The translations under genes were made by a program, and so were the position numbers. 64,000 nucleotides of DNA from a virus, in IMG/VR virus record IMGVR_UViG_3300033388_005412, positions 1 to 64,000 of that record; one strand, written 5' to 3'. Positions 18,746 through 50,779 of this stretch are shown here, one piece after another (positions within the stretch are counted from its first letter, which is position 1; every line of letters starts with the position of its first letter). The notes below the pieces were generated by a model. That model saw only the letters and a list, made by a program, of their open reading frames with translations, was not told the DNA's origin and made no database searches.

Positions 18746-19067
18746 CATGTCTAGAGATATACTTGAAAAAGAAATTGCTAAGAAATTTGGCGGACAGGTG
18801 ACCGTTGCTTCAGGTGCAATTCATAGCGACGGTGACGTCAGGATAGATGGATTTCTTGTTGAGGCAAAAAGGCATTTGACAAAGAAAAGTATATCCGTCA
18901 CTAATACAGTGTGGAAGCAGATAAGAAATCAGGCATTGAAACGTGGCCGGCGCCCATTGGTTATTTTTAAGAATAGTGAATTATCGGTTGCTATCTTAGA
19001 TTTAGAGGATTTTAAAGAAATGTACGAGGAGAATAAGGAAAATAAAAATGAAACAAATTCTATATAA
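18702..19067 (+). CDS. Small PD-(D/E)XK nuclease, Hjc/resolvase-like
   Basis: The core reads SGAIHSDGDVRIDGFLVEAKRH: an SG with nearby Asp (GDV), then E-A-K, the metal-binding D...ExK motif. An upstream helix (EKEIAKKFGG) supplies the N-terminal Glu of Hjc-type resolvases. Its size (121 aa) and position just before recA suit Holliday-junction or branch cleavage. An alternative start at 18747 would avoid most of the overlap with the previous gene. A VRR-type or other small structure-specific nuclease cannot be excluded. Confidence 0.65.
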   Translation: MKSIAKVIFGCRKPDMSRDILEKEIAKKFGGQVTVASGAIHSDGDVRIDGFLVEAKRHLTKKSISVTNTVWKQIRNQALKRGRRPLVIFKNSELSVAILDLEDFKEMYEENKENKNETNSI

Positions 19068-20097
19068 AGATAAAAAATGGTTATATAAAAAATATTGTTG
19101 TGATATGTTATCATCAACTAATATTAGCAAAACATGCCATGTTACGCGACGTACTATTTTAAATTGGTTAGTGAAATATGAGATACCTAGACGCTCAAAT
19201 CTTGATTCTCAATTAAATAGATTTAAAAATAAAACATATTTAAATAAAAAATGGTTATTAAATAAATATTGTAATGATTTAAAATCAATAAATACCATTG
19301 CTAAGGAATGTGATATAGGTATTCATGGTGTTTTTAATTCATTGAAAAGACATAAAATAAGCACTAGAAGTTCAGGTTATGGGGCACATTTGTATTATAA
19401 TAATCATTGCAATTTAGATAAATATGCTATTGAATTTATTACAGGCGAAATGCTGGGTGATATGCATATAGAGAAAACTAGCAATTCAGCGGCTAGAATA
19501 ACATACGGCTCGAAGTATAAAAAATATCTAAACTTTTTAAGTAAGCAATTAAATTCTTTTGGAATAAAGCAATCTGGAAGATATACAATAACAAAAACAA
19601 TAAATCTTCCCGGAAATAGAAAAATAAAAGATAAAAATAGAGGCACAGTTTATCATTATTCTTCTTTAAGTTATCCAGAGCTCTTAGAGTTGTGCAAAAA
19701 GTGGTATATTCCTTACAAAGGATACTCTAAAAACAATCGTCGAAAATGGTTTAAAATAATTCCAAGAGATTTAGAATTAACACCGTTAGTTTGCCGACAG
19801 TGGTTTATTGGTGATGGTTGCACATCAAAATTAAGAAATGATTTGTATTTGGCAACTCGCGGATTTAAAGAAAAGGATGTAATGTTTCTAGCTATAAAAT
19901 TAAGTGATAAAGGATTCAGAATAACAAAACAAAAATACAATGATATACGTATTTCATGCTATTCAGTTGAAGATTTTTTGACATACATAGGACAGTGTCC
20001 AACAAAATGTTACGAATATAAATGGAGGATGTTAAATGAAAAAAGAAAAAGACTTGAAACTTCAAGAAGCGATAAATCAGTTGGCCAAACAGTATAA
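19048..20097 (+). CDS. Free-standing LAGLIDADG homing endonuclease next to recA
   Basis: Two helix-turn-helix-like repeats fill residues 1-110 (ISKTCHVTRRTILNWL and IAKECDIGIHGVFNSL, each followed by H/Y-x-I-x-R/T-RS). The endonuclease domain contains FITGEMLGDMHI and CRQWFIGDGCT, both LAGLIDADG motifs with acidic residues. It overlaps the preceding nuclease gene by 20 bp and recA by 62 bp, which suggests insertion at a gene boundary without breaking either. Such free-standing genes usually cut relatives lacking them at or near the neighbouring gene. Confidence 0.85.
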   Translation: MKQILYKDKKWLYKKYCCDMLSSTNISKTCHVTRRTILNWLVKYEIPRRSNLDSQLNRFKNKTYLNKKWLLNKYCNDLKSINTIAKECDIGIHGVFNSLKRHKISTRSSGYGAHLYYNNHCNLDKYAIEFITGEMLGDMHIEKTSNSAARITYGSKYKKYLNFLSKQLNSFGIKQSGRYTITKTINLPGNRKIKDKNRGTVYHYSSLSYPELLELCKKWYIPYKGYSKNNRRKWFKIIPRDLELTPLVCRQWFIGDGCTSKLRNDLYLATRGFKEKDVMFLAIKLSDKGFRITKQKYNDIRISCYSVEDFLTYIGQCPTKCYEYKWRMLNEKRKRLETSRSDKSVGQTV

Positions 20098-35463: not shown

Positions 35464-38400
35464 TTATATATTATTAATTTTATCCCTTCGTTTGGAATGT
35501 ATTTGATGAAATTTTTCCATATCACCTAAAATAAAACATTCCCATATATCAGCAACAATATCCCAACTCCACCCAGCCACAATTATTTTTCTATTCGATA
35601 ATCCCGCTTGTTTCATTCTTTCCGGATCTTTTATCATTTTTATTATACCATCAGCTAATGAGTCAACATCTCTATTAACAATGCAATTTAAATAACTTAT
35701 GTTTATTTCTGAAGTTACACCTACTTCTGTTGAAACAAATGGAATACCACATGCACATGTTTCCACCAACGGTGTCGGTAGCCCCTCATTCGATGACGCA
35801 CAAATGTATAAATCAATATCAGAATAAAATTCCGGCATTTTTTCGTGGGGAATTAAGTTTTCATATCCATGTGTTTTAAAAATAACATTCGGATATTGTT
35901 TCTTTACAATATCTATTGCCGGAATGATAATATCATAATATCCTTTTAGTTTTTTATTTTTATTACCCACCCAACCTATAGTAATTGCATTATTTTCCAA
36001 TATATTATGAAATTTAAACATATTCGTATCAATTCCAGATGGTAAATAATACGCATCTATACTATGTTTATCTTTCCATGCTTGTATTATATTTTCAGAT
36101 ATTGTGCTATGTCTTAAACCATTTTGTATAAATTGAATTTCATTTTTTATCCATATGTTTCCGCTAATTTCGCTATTCTCAAGACCTATGCTATAAGGAT
36201 TATGATGAACCATTGTCACATTTGGTCTATTTAATAATGCGGGTGCAAAATTTGCACGGGACATACCAAATGAGGCCATAGCAAATATCATATCATATTT
36301 TTCTAGATTTAAAGTTAAAAATTCTCTCATGGAATATGCTGTGTAATTAACATCTGATTTTATATTATTTATGAATCCCTTTGCCTGGGAATGAATTGCC
36401 CAATCGGGGGAGTCATAAATCAAAGCAATATTTAAATTTCCCTTTCCTTTTTTTTGAATATAGTTTTTTTTACTTTCTAATATATTATTTAGAAATTCTT
36501 TTGACCTTATTTGCGGTGCAGCTGATTCATGATCCTGATGAATAAATTCAGATACTTTATCCCTTATTGTTTTTATGTTTTCAGCGCCGCATTTCCAAAA
36601 CATAAAATTATCTTCACCGCCCCATTGCTGAAAACTTTCCGGCCATTTTCCTATTTTTTCAAAGTCTGTTTTGTGTATTCCGCAATTACCATATCCGCCT
36701 TTGCGCCATCCTAGTTTATCAGCACACTGTAAAGTTTTCTCATTTTTACAAATAGGAAAACAAGCTTGATTTTCTTTAATATTTGATGACATAATATCTG
36801 TAAAATTTTCAGGAAAAAGCATGTCAGCATCAGTAAAAAATAGCCGACTGTATTTAGCAACTGCCGCACCGGCATTTAACCCACAGGATCGGTTAAATTC
36901 TTTTTCATTTTGTACAATTCTTATAGGAAATTTAAATTTTTGGCGTAAATCATTGAAATCAATATCTGTTGAGTGGAAATCCGATATAATTATTTCGAAG
37001 TTTTTATAATTTTGATTTGATATTGTTTCAAACATACGATGTAACATAGAAGCTCTATTTTTTAGTGTTAATATAATAGACACATTTTCTTTATTATCCA
37101 TGTGATGTTTCCTCTTTACAATGTTAACAGCGTCCGGCCAACTTATGACTGAACCACCTGTTATGCTGTTATCGCGAACATGCGCCATGAATAATGGTTC
37201 CGGAATATGTTTTCCAATCTTATTATTTTCTAACATAGTCAGCCAGAGATCCCAGTCCTGGGCACGTTGTATATAAGGGTCAAGCCCTGGAAAATCTTTT
37301 TTTCTGATAAGTGACATCATGCTTATGTAATTACTTTTTTTTAAATAACTGGCGTTAAAATTTATTGTTTTAAACGTATCATTTATTATTCCCTTTCTTT
37401 TATAATCAGAATACGCATAACTTATTTTTGGGTTATCTTTAAGAACACCTGCCATCTTTTCGAGCATCTGCGGATCCCATTCAGAATCAGCATCTGAGAA
37501 TAATAAATAATCACCTTTTGATTTTTCATATCCTTTTTCTCTCGCTATATTAGCATTTGTGTGTTTATTGCAATTTATTACTTTAAATTTATACCCATCT
37601 GCATATAATTCTTTCAATATATTTTCCGTATCATCTGTTGATCCGTCATTAACTATAATTATTTCAAAATGTTTGTATGTCTGATTATATATACTGCTTA
37701 TTAAATCCGGAAAATATTTACCACAGTTATATGTTGGTATGATAATACTAATTAACGGAGTGTCTGACGAAGTGTCTGACGAACCATTGTTAATTAGTAA
37801 ATTATTAGTATTTATTAGAACACTCTTATCCGGTTTATTAGATAATTTATCACACCACTTTGATTTAAACATATTCCGATCATCAATTAATCTCTCATCT
37901 CCAGATCTGCTTCTTGTTGCACATGTTATGTGTTTTGCCACAGCCTTATGCGCATATATTGTCTTATATCCAACATCTTCAGCCTTGAGGGAATAATCTA
38001 CATCACTTGATTCCATTTTATATTGTATTGAAAAACACCCAAGCTTATCAAATAAATCATGCCGCGTCATAAAACACGCGCCTGTGACAGCCTGAACTTC
38101 TTTTGTCTCATTGGCCTGAGGGTGGCCCCCTGGTTTACCAATATAAGAATGTTTACAATTGCATTGCTTATCTATTTCAATGCCGGCATGCTGAATTGTG
38201 CCATCTTGAAATAACAACTTGGCCCCGACAACACCAACTTTCGGTTTTGCCAGTTCTTCTACCATATTATTTAACCAGTCTATTTCCACAAAAGCATCAT
38301 TATTCAAAAAACAAAGTATATTATTTTTAGAATACTTTGCTCCGAGATTACAGAATCTAGAAAAATTAAATTCTTCCGGATGATTATAAACTCTGATGGC

Positions 38401-40452
38401 CGGATTTTGTTTTATTTGTTTTAAATAATTAACTGTATTCACATCCGTACTGCCATTATCAATTATGACTATCTCATAAGGATATTTCGTGTTTTTTCTT
38501 ATATGATTGATACACGTTGATAATAAATCATATCTATCTTTATTTAAAATAATAATACTAACTGGTTCCTTTTTTGCCACGTTTGTTGTTTTAAATAATT
38601 TTTCATCAGGAATCATTTTGTTTATAACATCAACCCATTTCGGGCCGATATTCTCCCATGAATACTTCTTAACATCTTTTCTACCGCTCTCTCCCAAACT
38701 TTTAATCAGTTTTCTATCATTATATAGTATATCAAATGAATCAGTAATTTCAGATATTGATGGTATGGCTCGGCGAATATTTGTCCCGGGTTCAACATAA
38801 AAACCAACCGGTCTAATAAACATTGTTCCCTTTTGAAAATTTTTTAATTCAGAATAATCTGTTATCACCGCTGGAGTCCCTGTAGAAAGGGAATCGCAGT
38901 TATGGGCGTATGCCACACCATTCACTATGTATGTATTATCATCTTCAACTTCTAAATTATAAACATATCCCTTGTACATTTTTCCCACTATTTTAGTGAT
39001 CGGCGTTTTAACATATGATCTGAATTCATTATCAACAACTCCTGTTTTGCTTCTTGAATTTGTTCTTCTTTTTGTCGTGTCCAATGCTATATTCTGATAG
39101 ATATTTAATTTAGTTTTACTTAATTTATTATGAATTCCCATTGATAAAAGACAATCGCGCATCCTGGCTAAGATTGGAAAATCCGTACAACGATGTGATA
39201 ATTTCGGGAAATGTGTGTCCAGTCGTAATTGTTTTCTTACTATTTTCTTTTCAACATCGGATGTTTCGATTATCGGATACCATAATAAATCACCGCGTTT
39301 CAAATGTTTTGCTGTTTTCCATGCCTTTGCTGTCCAAAACCTATGATTAGGTGTAACTTGTATAGGTGTCGACGTCTCGGTATATATATTGTAAATTTTA
39401 CCAGTATAATGTCTTTTAAAAACTTTAAGAACTTTTTTTAATTTACCTCTATGTGTATAAACATAATTTCCCGGCCGGATCCACTGAATTGGCTTATGTT
39501 CATATTTGGTTTTCACATAAGTATTTCTTAAAAAGCACACCGTACCGCCGAAGCCTTCCCCGCTTGACGGCAGCGTTGTTATGTCACACGCGTTATACAG
39601 TCGATTTAGTTTTTCAATTGGAACACCGTGCCCCAGTTGTAACGATGGATTTAATATAACTTTAGATTTGACATTATGATCACCTACCAATGAATGTAGG
39701 TCCCACCCGGCCGGATCATTTATTGCAGTATGCAAATATAAATATGTATTTGGTTTATTCCATTTTGCAAACGCCTCTATAGCATATGGTAGACCCTTCC
39801 TGGGATTTTGTCGGCCAAAATAACCAATAATAAATGAGTCTATATTAACATTCCATATTTGGGTTTTAATGCTTTTTTTATTTTTGAGTGGAACAAATTT
39901 ATTGATCTCACAACCGTCTGATATAATTGTCGTGAATTTCTTCATTATTTTATCCTTCTCTTTTGTTGATAGTTTTGATAATGTTGTTTGAAATCGTTCT
40001 TTTATAACCCGAAAAGCATACGGTCCCGCCGCAATTAATTTATCGGCCGATGCCAGTATTTGCGGACATGATATTATTTGATGTTGATTTTTAACAATAT
40101 TCGGTAATGGCTCGCCTTCTATATGAACATATAAAATTGTTGGAACTTCAGTATTCAGATATGGTTTGGCCGCCCAAATATCAGTTATTATAATTATCAA
40201 ATCAGGTGAAAATTCATTAACTATTTTATCATATTGTTTTTTCTGAAAATGTCGCGGATTGCCGCCTAAATTAACAGGCCATGATATTGTTTTATTATTA
40301 TAATTGTCGTTTTCATTATTTCTTGGATCAAATAATCCAATATGTTCAACAGCAAATCCATTATTATGTAAATAATTACCCAACCCACGACCCAACTGGC
40401 CAAAACCCGTATCGAGAAACGGGCTATCTGAAATTAATAATATCTTCTTCAA
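35464..40452 (-). CDS. Giant multi-domain glycosyltransferase (GT4-GT2-GT2-GT2-GT4) carrying a mini-intein
   Basis: 1662 residues, or about 1449 after intein removal. Domains in order: GT4 (1-305 plus 519-620, with GYFGRQNPRKGL and the donor motif EGFGG...CDSLSTGTP); GT2 from about 629 (VSIIILNKDRYDLL, DNGSTD, FLNNDA); GT2 from about 905 (ISIIIPTYNCGKY, NDGSTDDT, SDADSEWD); GT2 from about 1125 (VSIILTLKNRAS, FTDADMLF); GT4 from about 1345 (IGWVGNKNKKLKGY, ASSNEGLPTPLVE). No membrane segments are seen. It probably assembles several linkages of one glycan, like other multi-domain polymerases. An internal promoter precedes it (40730-40758). Confidence 0.88.
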   Translation of the reverse strand: MKKILLISDSPFLDTGFGQLGRGLGNYLHNNGFAVEHIGLFDPRNNENDNYNNKTISWPVNLGGNPRHFQKKQYDKIVNEFSPDLIIIITDIWAAKPYLNTEVPTILYVHIEGEPLPNIVKNQHQIISCPQILASADKLIAAGPYAFRVIKERFQTTLSKLSTKEKDKIMKKFTTIISDGCEINKFVPLKNKKSIKTQIWNVNIDSFIIGYFGRQNPRKGLPYAIEAFAKWNKPNTYLYLHTAINDPAGWDLHSLVGDHNVKSKVILNPSLQLGHGVPIEKLNRLYNACDITTLPSSGEGFGGTVCFLRNTYVKTKYEHKPIQWIRPGNYVYTHRGKLKKVLKVFKRHYTGKIYNIYTETSTPIQVTPNHRFWTAKAWKTAKHLKRGDLLWYPIIETSDVEKKIVRKQLRLDTHFPKLSHRCTDFPILARMRDCLLSMGIHNKLSKTKLNIYQNIALDTTKRRTNSRSKTGVVDNEFRSYVKTPITKIVGKMYKGYVYNLEVEDDNTYIVNGVAYAHNCDSLSTGTPAVITDYSELKNFQKGTMFIRPVGFYVEPGTNIRRAIPSISEITDSFDILYNDRKLIKSLGESGRKDVKKYSWENIGPKWVDVINKMIPDEKLFKTTNVAKKEPVSIIILNKDRYDLLSTCINHIRKNTKYPYEIVIIDNGSTDVNTVNYLKQIKQNPAIRVYNHPEEFNFSRFCNLGAKYSKNNILCFLNNDAFVEIDWLNNMVEELAKPKVGVVGAKLLFQDGTIQHAGIEIDKQCNCKHSYIGKPGGHPQANETKEVQAVTGACFMTRHDLFDKLGCFSIQYKMESSDVDYSLKAEDVGYKTIYAHKAVAKHITCATRSRSGDERLIDDRNMFKSKWCDKLSNKPDKSVLINTNNLLINNGSSDTSSDTPLISIIIPTYNCGKYFPDLISSIYNQTYKHFEIIIVNDGSTDDTENILKELYADGYKFKVINCNKHTNANIAREKGYEKSKGDYLLFSDADSEWDPQMLEKMAGVLKDNPKISYAYSDYKRKGIINDTFKTINFNASYLKKSNYISMMSLIRKKDFPGLDPYIQRAQDWDLWLTMLENNKIGKHIPEPLFMAHVRDNSITGGSVISWPDAVNIVKRKHHMDNKENVSIILTLKNRASMLHRMFETISNQNYKNFEIIISDFHSTDIDFNDLRQKFKFPIRIVQNEKEFNRSCGLNAGAAVAKYSRLFFTDADMLFPENFTDIMSSNIKENQACFPICKNEKTLQCADKLGWRKGGYGNCGIHKTDFEKIGKWPESFQQWGGEDNFMFWKCGAENIKTIRDKVSEFIHQDHESAAPQIRSKEFLNNILESKKNYIQKKGKGNLNIALIYDSPDWAIHSQAKGFINNIKSDVNYTAYSMREFLTLNLEKYDMIFAMASFGMSRANFAPALLNRPNVTMVHHNPYSIGLENSEISGNIWIKNEIQFIQNGLRHSTISENIIQAWKDKHSIDAYYLPSGIDTNMFKFHNILENNAITIGWVGNKNKKLKGYYDIIIPAIDIVKKQYPNVIFKTHGYENLIPHEKMPEFYSDIDLYICASSNEGLPTPLVETCACGIPFVSTEVGVTSEINISYLNCIVNRDVDSLADGIIKMIKDPERMKQAGLSNRKIIVAGWSWDIVADIWECFILGDMEKFHQIHSKRRDKINNI
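38899..39537 (-). mobile_element. Mini-intein (213 aa) in the glycosyltransferase
   Basis: Residues 306-518 of the host protein. It starts with Cys1 (CFLRNTYVK), has block B TPNHRFWTA (TxxH) and block F YVYNLEVEDDNTYIVNG, and ends AHN followed by Cys+1: the classical splice-junction residues. Removing it joins EGFGGTV to CDSLSTGTP, the intact donor-binding loop of a GT4 enzyme. No active LAGLIDADG motif remains. A segment ARMRDCLLSMGIHNKLSKTK between blocks B and F resembles the tail of such endonucleases, so it is probably a degenerate homing intein that still splices. Confidence 0.9.
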
Positions 40453-49073: not shown

Positions 49074-49376
49074 ATGATTGACATTAAGAAAGCGTTGGAT
49101 ACAACTAATTTTGAAGAAAAAATATTCAAACAAGCTAAAAAACAAAATGAATTTGATGAATTATTAATGAAGAGTGAAATTTTCACGGAAATGCGCCGAG
49201 TAGTTAAAAAATTATTTGAACTTGCTTTTATGGATGATCGCTCAGCAATTAAAAAGAAACTAAAAGCCAACTATAAAAAAAATGGAATTACTTTGGGTTT
49301 GCTTGATGACATCGAACATTGGAAAGATGAAAAATGGGAGACCAGGGAAAAACAAATAAAACAGGCAACAAAATGA
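49074..49376 (+). CDS. Hypothetical Lys-rich helical protein, 100 aa
   Basis: AAGGAGG precedes the start. Helical and highly charged (EKIFKQAKKQNEFDELLMKS). No recognised family. It is coupled to the CCA-adding enzyme gene by ATGA overlap and shares its promoter. Confidence 0.65.
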   Translation: MIDIKKALDTTNFEEKIFKQAKKQNEFDELLMKSEIFTEMRRVVKKLFELAFMDDRSAIKKKLKANYKKNGITLGLLDDIEHWKDEKWETREKQIKQATK

Positions 49377-50779
49377 ATGAAATAGTAATACCGAATGAAG
49401 CAAAAAAAATCTTTGATATTTTCAAAGATGCCGGTTATAAAATCTGGCTTGTTGGTGGGTGTTGCCGTGATCTTTTAATCGACGCAAACACTGAATTAAA
49501 AGATTTGGATTTCGCTAGTCCGACAAGGGCTGATATAACAACCAAAATATTAAAAGATAATGGATACAAACCATATACCATAGGATCGTATTTCGGTACA
49601 ATAGGGACAACTGTTAATAATATTGATATACAGGTAACAACATTTCGTAAAAAAGAACATTATAACAGAGGTTCCAGACATCCCGAGGTTGAATTCGGCG
49701 AATCCATAGACCAGGACATAGCCCGGCGGGATTTTCGCATGAATTCAATAGCGGCCGATGAAAATGGTAATATATATGATCCATATGATGGATATAAAGA
49801 TATCATAAATAAAGAAATATCAGTTGCCGGTGATATAAAAGAAATAATGTCAGAAGATCCGCTTAGATTATTAAGATGTGGGCGCTTTATAAGCAAATTC
49901 GGATTCAGCCCATCATTGGACTTACTTGATACTGTCGCTGAATTATCATATCTCATAACAACAATCAGCGTTGAAAGATGGAGACAGGAAATGGACAAGC
50001 TTCTACTTGGAAAAAATCCCGGAGACGCCCTTGATTTTATGATATATACAAAACTCTGCAATTATATGCTTCCTGAATTAATAAATATTGTCGATTTCGA
50101 TCAGTCAAGTCAATACCATCATAAAAATGTATTTGAACATACAAAACAAGTCATTGAACAAACTCCTCTCATACTGGAAATCAGATGGGCCGCCCTTATG
50201 CATGATTTGGGTAAAGCATATACACGAACATACGAAGATGGAAATGTTCATTTCTACAAGCATGAGATAATATCCGGAATACTGGCCAATGGAATCATGA
50301 ATAGATTCAAATTCCCAAATAAACTAAGAAAACGAATTAAAAATATCATAGAAAACCATATGTGCATTGTACAATATTCACCGGCATGGTGTGATTCGGC
50401 AGTACGGCGTTTCGCGAATAAGCATTCCAGTGCCGAATCAAGCATACTGGACAGTCTTTTTGAGCTTTCTATGGCTGATATAACATCTTCACACCCTGAC
50501 AGGGTTGAGGCCGGCATAGCTAACGTTAGACACCTCAAACAAAGAATTATTGACATGGCTAAGGCTAAAGAACTCGGCATTCATCTTCCAACCGGTTTAG
50601 GCAGGGCTATGATGGACACTCTTATGATTAAACAGGGGCCAATTATTGGAATAATTATGAAAAATATAATAGAACACATAGAAAGCGGTGAATTATTAGC
50701 AAATCAATCAATTGATTATTATATAGAGTGGATTAGAAAGAAGGAGGAATTATGGAAGCAGGAATGGAAACAGAAATGA
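49373..50779 (+). CDS. cca: CCA-adding tRNA nucleotidyltransferase with HD domain
   Basis: An enzyme that builds or repairs the 3' CCA of tRNA. The N-terminal head has WLVGGCCRDLL (GGxxRD with Gly28-29, Arg32, Asp33) and LKDLDFASP (DxD, Asp44/46), then RRDFRMNSIA and EDPLRLLRCGRF, the class II (poly(A) polymerase-like) order. A C-terminal HD domain shows VFEHTKQV and AALMHDLGK, as in E. coli-type CCA enzymes with phosphohydrolase activity. Start ATG 49373 overlaps the previous stop. Its presence fits with the tRNA-like RNA that lacks an encoded CCA. Confidence 0.9.
   Translation: MNEIVIPNEAKKIFDIFKDAGYKIWLVGGCCRDLLIDANTELKDLDFASPTRADITTKILKDNGYKPYTIGSYFGTIGTTVNNIDIQVTTFRKKEHYNRGSRHPEVEFGESIDQDIARRDFRMNSIAADENGNIYDPYDGYKDIINKEISVAGDIKEIMSEDPLRLLRCGRFISKFGFSPSLDLLDTVAELSYLITTISVERWRQEMDKLLLGKNPGDALDFMIYTKLCNYMLPELINIVDFDQSSQYHHKNVFEHTKQVIEQTPLILEIRWAALMHDLGKAYTRTYEDGNVHFYKHEIISGILANGIMNRFKFPNKLRKRIKNIIENHMCIVQYSPAWCDSAVRRFANKHSSAESSILDSLFELSMADITSSHPDRVEAGIANVRHLKQRIIDMAKAKELGIHLPTGLGRAMMDTLMIKQGPIIGIIMKNIIEHIESGELLANQSIDYYIEWIRKKEELWKQEWKQK

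Follow-up and report, generated by a model that had tools for sequence, protein, structure and literature searches.

In a large tailed phage, the catalytic EX7E motif of a GT4 glycosyltransferase domain is very probably interrupted by a mini-intein of class 1 that splices in cis. The window analyzed here, a 64-kb stretch of DNA, comprises positions 1-64000 of a 203,294-bp IMG/VR virus record; genes for a terminase large subunit (TerL), a polymerase of family B, and a primase-helicase identify the carrier as a large tailed phage. The host ORF (35464-40452, minus strand) encodes a multi-domain glycosyltransferase of 1662 aa, with the frame open through the insert, in which Pfam places three GT2-type stretches between two GT4 domains, with Intein_splicing lying within the first GT4. 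Adjoining genes encode a radical SAM protein, a GT10-type fucosyltransferase, and two methyltransferases, and the neighborhood is a cluster of the surface-glycan type, resembling those of jumbo phages (PMC7824862). Elsewhere in the window are a free-standing LAGLIDADG_2 endonuclease-like gene (19048-20097, plus strand; 52 bits) and a gene for a poly(A) polymerase/tRNA nucleotidyltransferase-like protein with an HD domain (49334-50779, plus strand); despite the latter, no tRNA genes were found in the 64-kb window.

The insert and its host domain

The features of the insert and its host are as follows (all on the minus strand; here and below, a slash within a sequence marks a splice or insertion site).

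38899..39537, intein, 213 aa, Cys1 to Asn213 (PF14890, 58.2 bits; exact ends; Hint fold)
39499..39537, block A with Cys1, CFLRNTYVKTKYE (Cys1 aligned with the inteins of L023, L036, and L039, described below)
39343..39354, block B TPNH, the TxxH motif (intein residues 62-65)
38992..39273, linker in the place of the endonuclease, intein residues 89-182, 94 aa (pLDDT <50 at 88-175)
38899..38964, blocks F and G, VYNLEVEDDNTYIVNGVAYAHN (TIGR01443 above cut-off)
38896..38898, Cys+1 codon of the C-extein (TGC immediately after AAC)
39538..40452, N-extein, first part of GT4 domain 1, ending ...EGFGGTV (PF00534, PHROG 2170)
38614..38898, C-extein, remainder of GT4 domain 1, starting CDSLSTGTP (domain continuous after in-silico removal)
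39556..39558, Glu299, first acidic residue of the EX7E motif (alignment of homologues)
38893..38895, second acidic residue of EX7E, Asp in the window and Glu in homologues (alignment of homologues)
36520..38574, three GT2-type domains of the host protein (PF00535, three stretches)
35551..35862, second GT4 domain, homologous site empty, NEGLPTPL/VETCACGIP (PF00534/PF13692)

The intein occupies precursor residues 306-518, in frame, with the flanks ...SSGEGFGGTV/C...AYAHN/CDSLSTGTPAV. All class 1 residues are present (Cys1, TPNH, the terminal His-Asn, and Cys+1), and the sequence-only reading, which had placed a mini-intein with these splice residues at 38899-39537, was correct to the base. The residue before the terminal HN, in AYAHN, departs from the commonest forms, as does the second acidic residue of the host motif (below), and both count against the reading. 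The insert matched Pfam PF14890 (Intein_splicing) at 58.2 bits (E 1.1e-15; cut-off 35.8 bits) and NCBIfam intein_Cterm TIGR01443 at 19.2 bits (cut-off 15.6 bits); with both scores above their cut-offs, the match to inteins is not a matter of chance. A phmmer search of the PDB returned PI-PkoII, the MJ0781 intein, and Mtu RecA mini-inteins. The structure model, for which four sequences were aligned, predicts the Hint core fairly confidently and leaves the linker unpredicted; its mean pLDDT is 56.6, and it is weak outside that core. Foldseek searches with this model yielded 49 PDB matches at E<=0.001 (best E 1.1e-6, solved inteins being among the matches; TM-scores, taken over the target, as high as 0.80), and those listed were inteins, bacterial-intein-like (BIL) domains, or Hedgehog domains. 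The Hint domain was thus matched both by sequence (PF14890, TIGR01443, phmmer) and by fold.

The insert falls between the two acidic residues of EX7E, the catalytic motif of GT4 enzymes. Once the intein is removed in silico, the host motif reads E-x7-D, Glu being the second acidic residue in the aligned homologues. Removal increased the PF00534 match (GT4 C-terminal domain) from 26.5 to 43.0 bits and that of PF13692 from 24.8 to 42.1 bits. Further, the glycosyltransferase family PHROG 2170 aligned with the intein-free protein in a single stretch (residues 2-400, covering 3-372 of 374), whereas its best stretch against the precursor stops at residue 302. The PF00534 gain and the uninterrupted PHROG 2170 match fit the earlier claim that removal rebuilds an EGFGG/CDSLSTGTP donor loop. 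Homologues, which that reading had proposed as a check, lack the insert: those of S-CBS4 (GEGWGLVN/FEH), TJE1 (GEGWGLSL/TEA), and Mel-JY01 (NEGFGIVT/IES) are continuous at the site, as is the paralogous second GT4 domain of the same protein, and B736L, a solved viral glycosyltransferase, aligned across the junction (SSGEGFGLCSAEG). We found no inteinless allele of the window gene itself, and a peptide-pattern search of viral contigs gave no close relatives of either the insert or the whole GT4 domain. The proposal of a mini-intein in a glycosyltransferase is therefore supported: Hint-domain matches were obtained, and none of the homologous glycosyltransferases was found to carry the segment as ordinary sequence.

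In common with the solved class 1 mini-inteins (the Mtu RecA splicing domain, 3ifj/2in8; gp41-1, 6qaz; MchDnaB-1, 6rix; and Ssp DnaB, 1mi8), the window intein has the Hint fold, Cys1, TxxH, HN, and a +1 nucleophile, and lacks an endonuclease. Over the structural alignment, identity to most of them is 13-16%. While these solved examples reside in replication or recombination proteins, the window intein resides in a glycosyltransferase and has kept a linker of about 94 aa.

Splicing, the linker, and alternative readings

With these residues in place, the likeliest chemistry by a wide margin is ordinary class 1 splicing. The reaction would occur post-translationally, by (i) attack of Cys1 on the Val305-Cys306 peptide bond (N-S shift), (ii) transfer of the N-extein to Cys+1, (iii) cyclisation of the terminal Asn, aided by the penultimate His, and (iv) an S-N shift that would join ...EGFGGTV to CDSLSTGTP... 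and restore the GT4 donor loop. In the unspliced GT4 domain, the catalytic motif would be split.

This splitting of the motif until splicing, together with the fact that both nucleophiles are cysteines, would suit a switch, in which redox- or temperature-dependent splicing times activation of the glycosyltransferase during infection. We consider such a switch unlikely, as the sequence bears no sign of regulation and selfish homing alone yields the same anatomy.

Profile searches of the insert detected no homing endonuclease domain, whether LAGLIDADG or other, and a Pfam search of the linker, with E allowed up to 10, gave no match. Although 'LARMRDCLLSMGIHNKL' within the linker is similar to LAGLIDADG by eye, a small LAGLIDADG profile scored the linker like shuffled sequence (153 of about 2000 shuffles scored as high), and neither this test nor Pfam supported a LAGLIDADG remnant. 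Of an endonuclease said to be lost except for a short remnant, the loss agrees with the absence of a match, but the remnant gained no support from these tests.

Loss of the endonuclease is a step toward decay, and the motif has Asp as its second acidic residue; both would fit a decayed intein, non-splicing or merely cleaving, that has retained its Hint domain within an inactive first GT4 domain. However, the splice residues are all intact and the 1662-aa frame is open, which argues against decay, because a dead insert in a catalytic motif leaves no pressure to keep them; we regard a decayed element as decidedly unlikely. A BIL domain, or some other autoprocessing Hint domain that is native to the protein and cleaves rather than splices, is a highly improbable identity for the insert: Hint_2 and PT-HINT models match it weakly and the fold matches include BIL structures, but it sits in the conserved EX7E motif, whereas BILs occupy variable regions (PMC5874633), it has a Cys+1, and it is absent from homologues, with the GT4 domain restored on its removal.

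Inteins in other glycosyltransferases and in related phages

We searched public collections for DNA encoding the expected C-terminal junction, HN-C-[DE]-...-GTP. The viral contigs gave seven matches, most of which were dismissed as chance; two (L023 and L028) are real GT4-intein fusions. Of eight matches in a genome collection, only one (L036) was likewise real. In both L023 and L036 the interrupted sequence is SEGWNLPL/CEAMACGTP, at a position homologous to the window site, and their inteins (372 and 378 aa, respectively) are LAGLIDADG-type and 60% identical to each other; L028 carries a LAGLIDADG-type intein at the same GT4 site as the window. All three share with the window intein the EX7E position and the arrangement Cys1...HN/Cys+1, and differ from it in being LAGLIDADG-type, 372-378 aa long where complete, and 27-29% identical to it. 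L036 is 8 kb of contig JAFGOA010000025.1, binned as Candidatus Lokiarchaeota. It has neighboring genes in common with the viral contig of L023 and L037, and may for this reason be viral and mis-binned.

A second glycosyltransferase site was also found occupied. An alignment search identified a GT2 protein (L039) whose DXD motif is immediately preceded by an intein (ADLV/CFLDDDN), and a further pattern identified a 54% identical intein at the same GT2 site on another viral contig (L058/L062). Like the window intein, these two interrupt a catalytic motif of a glycosyltransferase, and theirs are the intein sequences closest to it; they differ in the glycosyltransferase fold and motif that they occupy and in the presence of a LAGLIDADG endonuclease. 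The viral contig with the GT2 intein of L039 also bears a TerL gene with two inteins (L053, 1141-4812).

The usual intein hosts, according to a review, are replication and repair proteins and nucleotide enzymes (PMC5874633), and the sequence-only reading had called a glycosyltransferase an atypical host. Unusual it is, but not singular, as five further glycosyltransferase inteins were found. In an incomplete search of the open-access literature, we found no report of inteins in glycosyltransferases. Phage inteins at active sites, on the other hand, are already known (PMC5050341): like the window intein, those of mycobacteriophage TerL and other proteins lie at or near catalytic motifs, and splicing is needed for the active site to form. 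The TerL inteins have a packaging ATPase as host, and in experiments five tested ones splice and two cut DNA.

The window phage record holds at least four further inteins: a pair within a single 2851-aa protein, a third in a gene resembling that of a major head protein, and a fourth at about 130 kb. The 2851-aa protein (L005:1983-10538, minus strand; about 97.0-105.5 kb of the record) has tandem inteins of 453 and 423 aa, with a PF14890 score of 72.7 bits in all and a LAGLIDADG_3 match in the second. The intein in the gene matching the PHROG major head protein (L005:13523-15001, minus strand; about 108.5-110 kb) has a LAGLIDADG_3 match of 43.8 bits and Ser at +1. The remaining intein (L006:3589-5292, minus strand; about 129.6-131.3 kb) is 313 aa long, C...ATHN/C, and its middle, FCVYLMKRGRFWRIGKTK...R...E, resembles on inspection a GIY-YIG nuclease rather than LAGLIDADG; Pfam gave no GIY-YIG match to this intein. 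A GIY-YIG-type intein, if true, would be unusual.

In a sister contig (L054; TerL 93% identical), a small gene carries an intein, ISWSKR/C...SHN/SGMP, while its counterpart in the window phage (L006:2177-2674) is uninterrupted, ISWAKRSGMP. Such presence and absence between sister phages indicates that inteins are moving in the window phage group. A related phage (L055) has a TerL intein, DKGYGN/C...LHN/TQIE, where TerL of the window phage (L006:1-1317) is uninterrupted, DKGFGTMQIE. For large phages, a high density of inteins has a precedent in the crAss-like group (PMC7886860).

Kinship, history, and meaning

In BLAST searches with the window insert, the GT2 inteins were closest; next came the capsid intein of a Gordonia phage, then the TerL intein of a faecal phage, and then the GT4 inteins. 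A small tree grouped the window intein with the glycosyltransferase inteins and the Gordonia intein at 86% ultrafast bootstrap (the usual mark being 95%), with the remaining inteins from the window phage and from its relatives placed outside this group. A derivation of the insert as a copy of another intein in the same phage was rejected, those with a complete splicing domain lying elsewhere in the tree, with moderate support. The window intein and those of L023 and L036 are compatible with either one invasion of the site or independent arrivals.

It is established that inteins prefer conserved sites and spread by a homing cycle (PMC1654191, PMC2814812). The window insert probably arrived as a homing intein with an endonuclease that was lost afterwards, the expected fate of a fixed parasitic element; the lack of an endonuclease, a base composition that equals the host gene's, and the full-length relatives at the same site all fit a homing intein that became fixed. 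The EX7E motif would be a favorable site, being conserved and such that imprecise loss would ruin the enzyme. Splicing itself, this homing history, and any need of the phage for the glycosyltransferase are what we infer.

What is new, and worth following, is the recurrence of inteins at two glycosyltransferase catalytic motifs. With GT4-site and GT2-site inteins on several contigs, the catalytic sites of phage glycosyltransferases look like recurrent, overlooked intein targets. We regard as evenly balanced the broader proposal that GT4 EX7E and GT2 DXD form a recurrent, unrecognised intein niche in glycan-remodelling phages, in which inteins home between glycosyltransferase genes of different phages and the window element is a fixed mini-intein on whose splicing the activation of a five-domain enzyme hinges.

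The host bias of inteins may stem from function or simply from the conservation of their target sites; as glycosyltransferases are accessory genes, inteins at their catalytic motifs in phages favor the conserved-target view. Glycosyltransferases are also an added class of intein host with a simple assay, sugar transfer being on or off, and inteins can disrupt the way in which phage glycosyltransferases are annotated.
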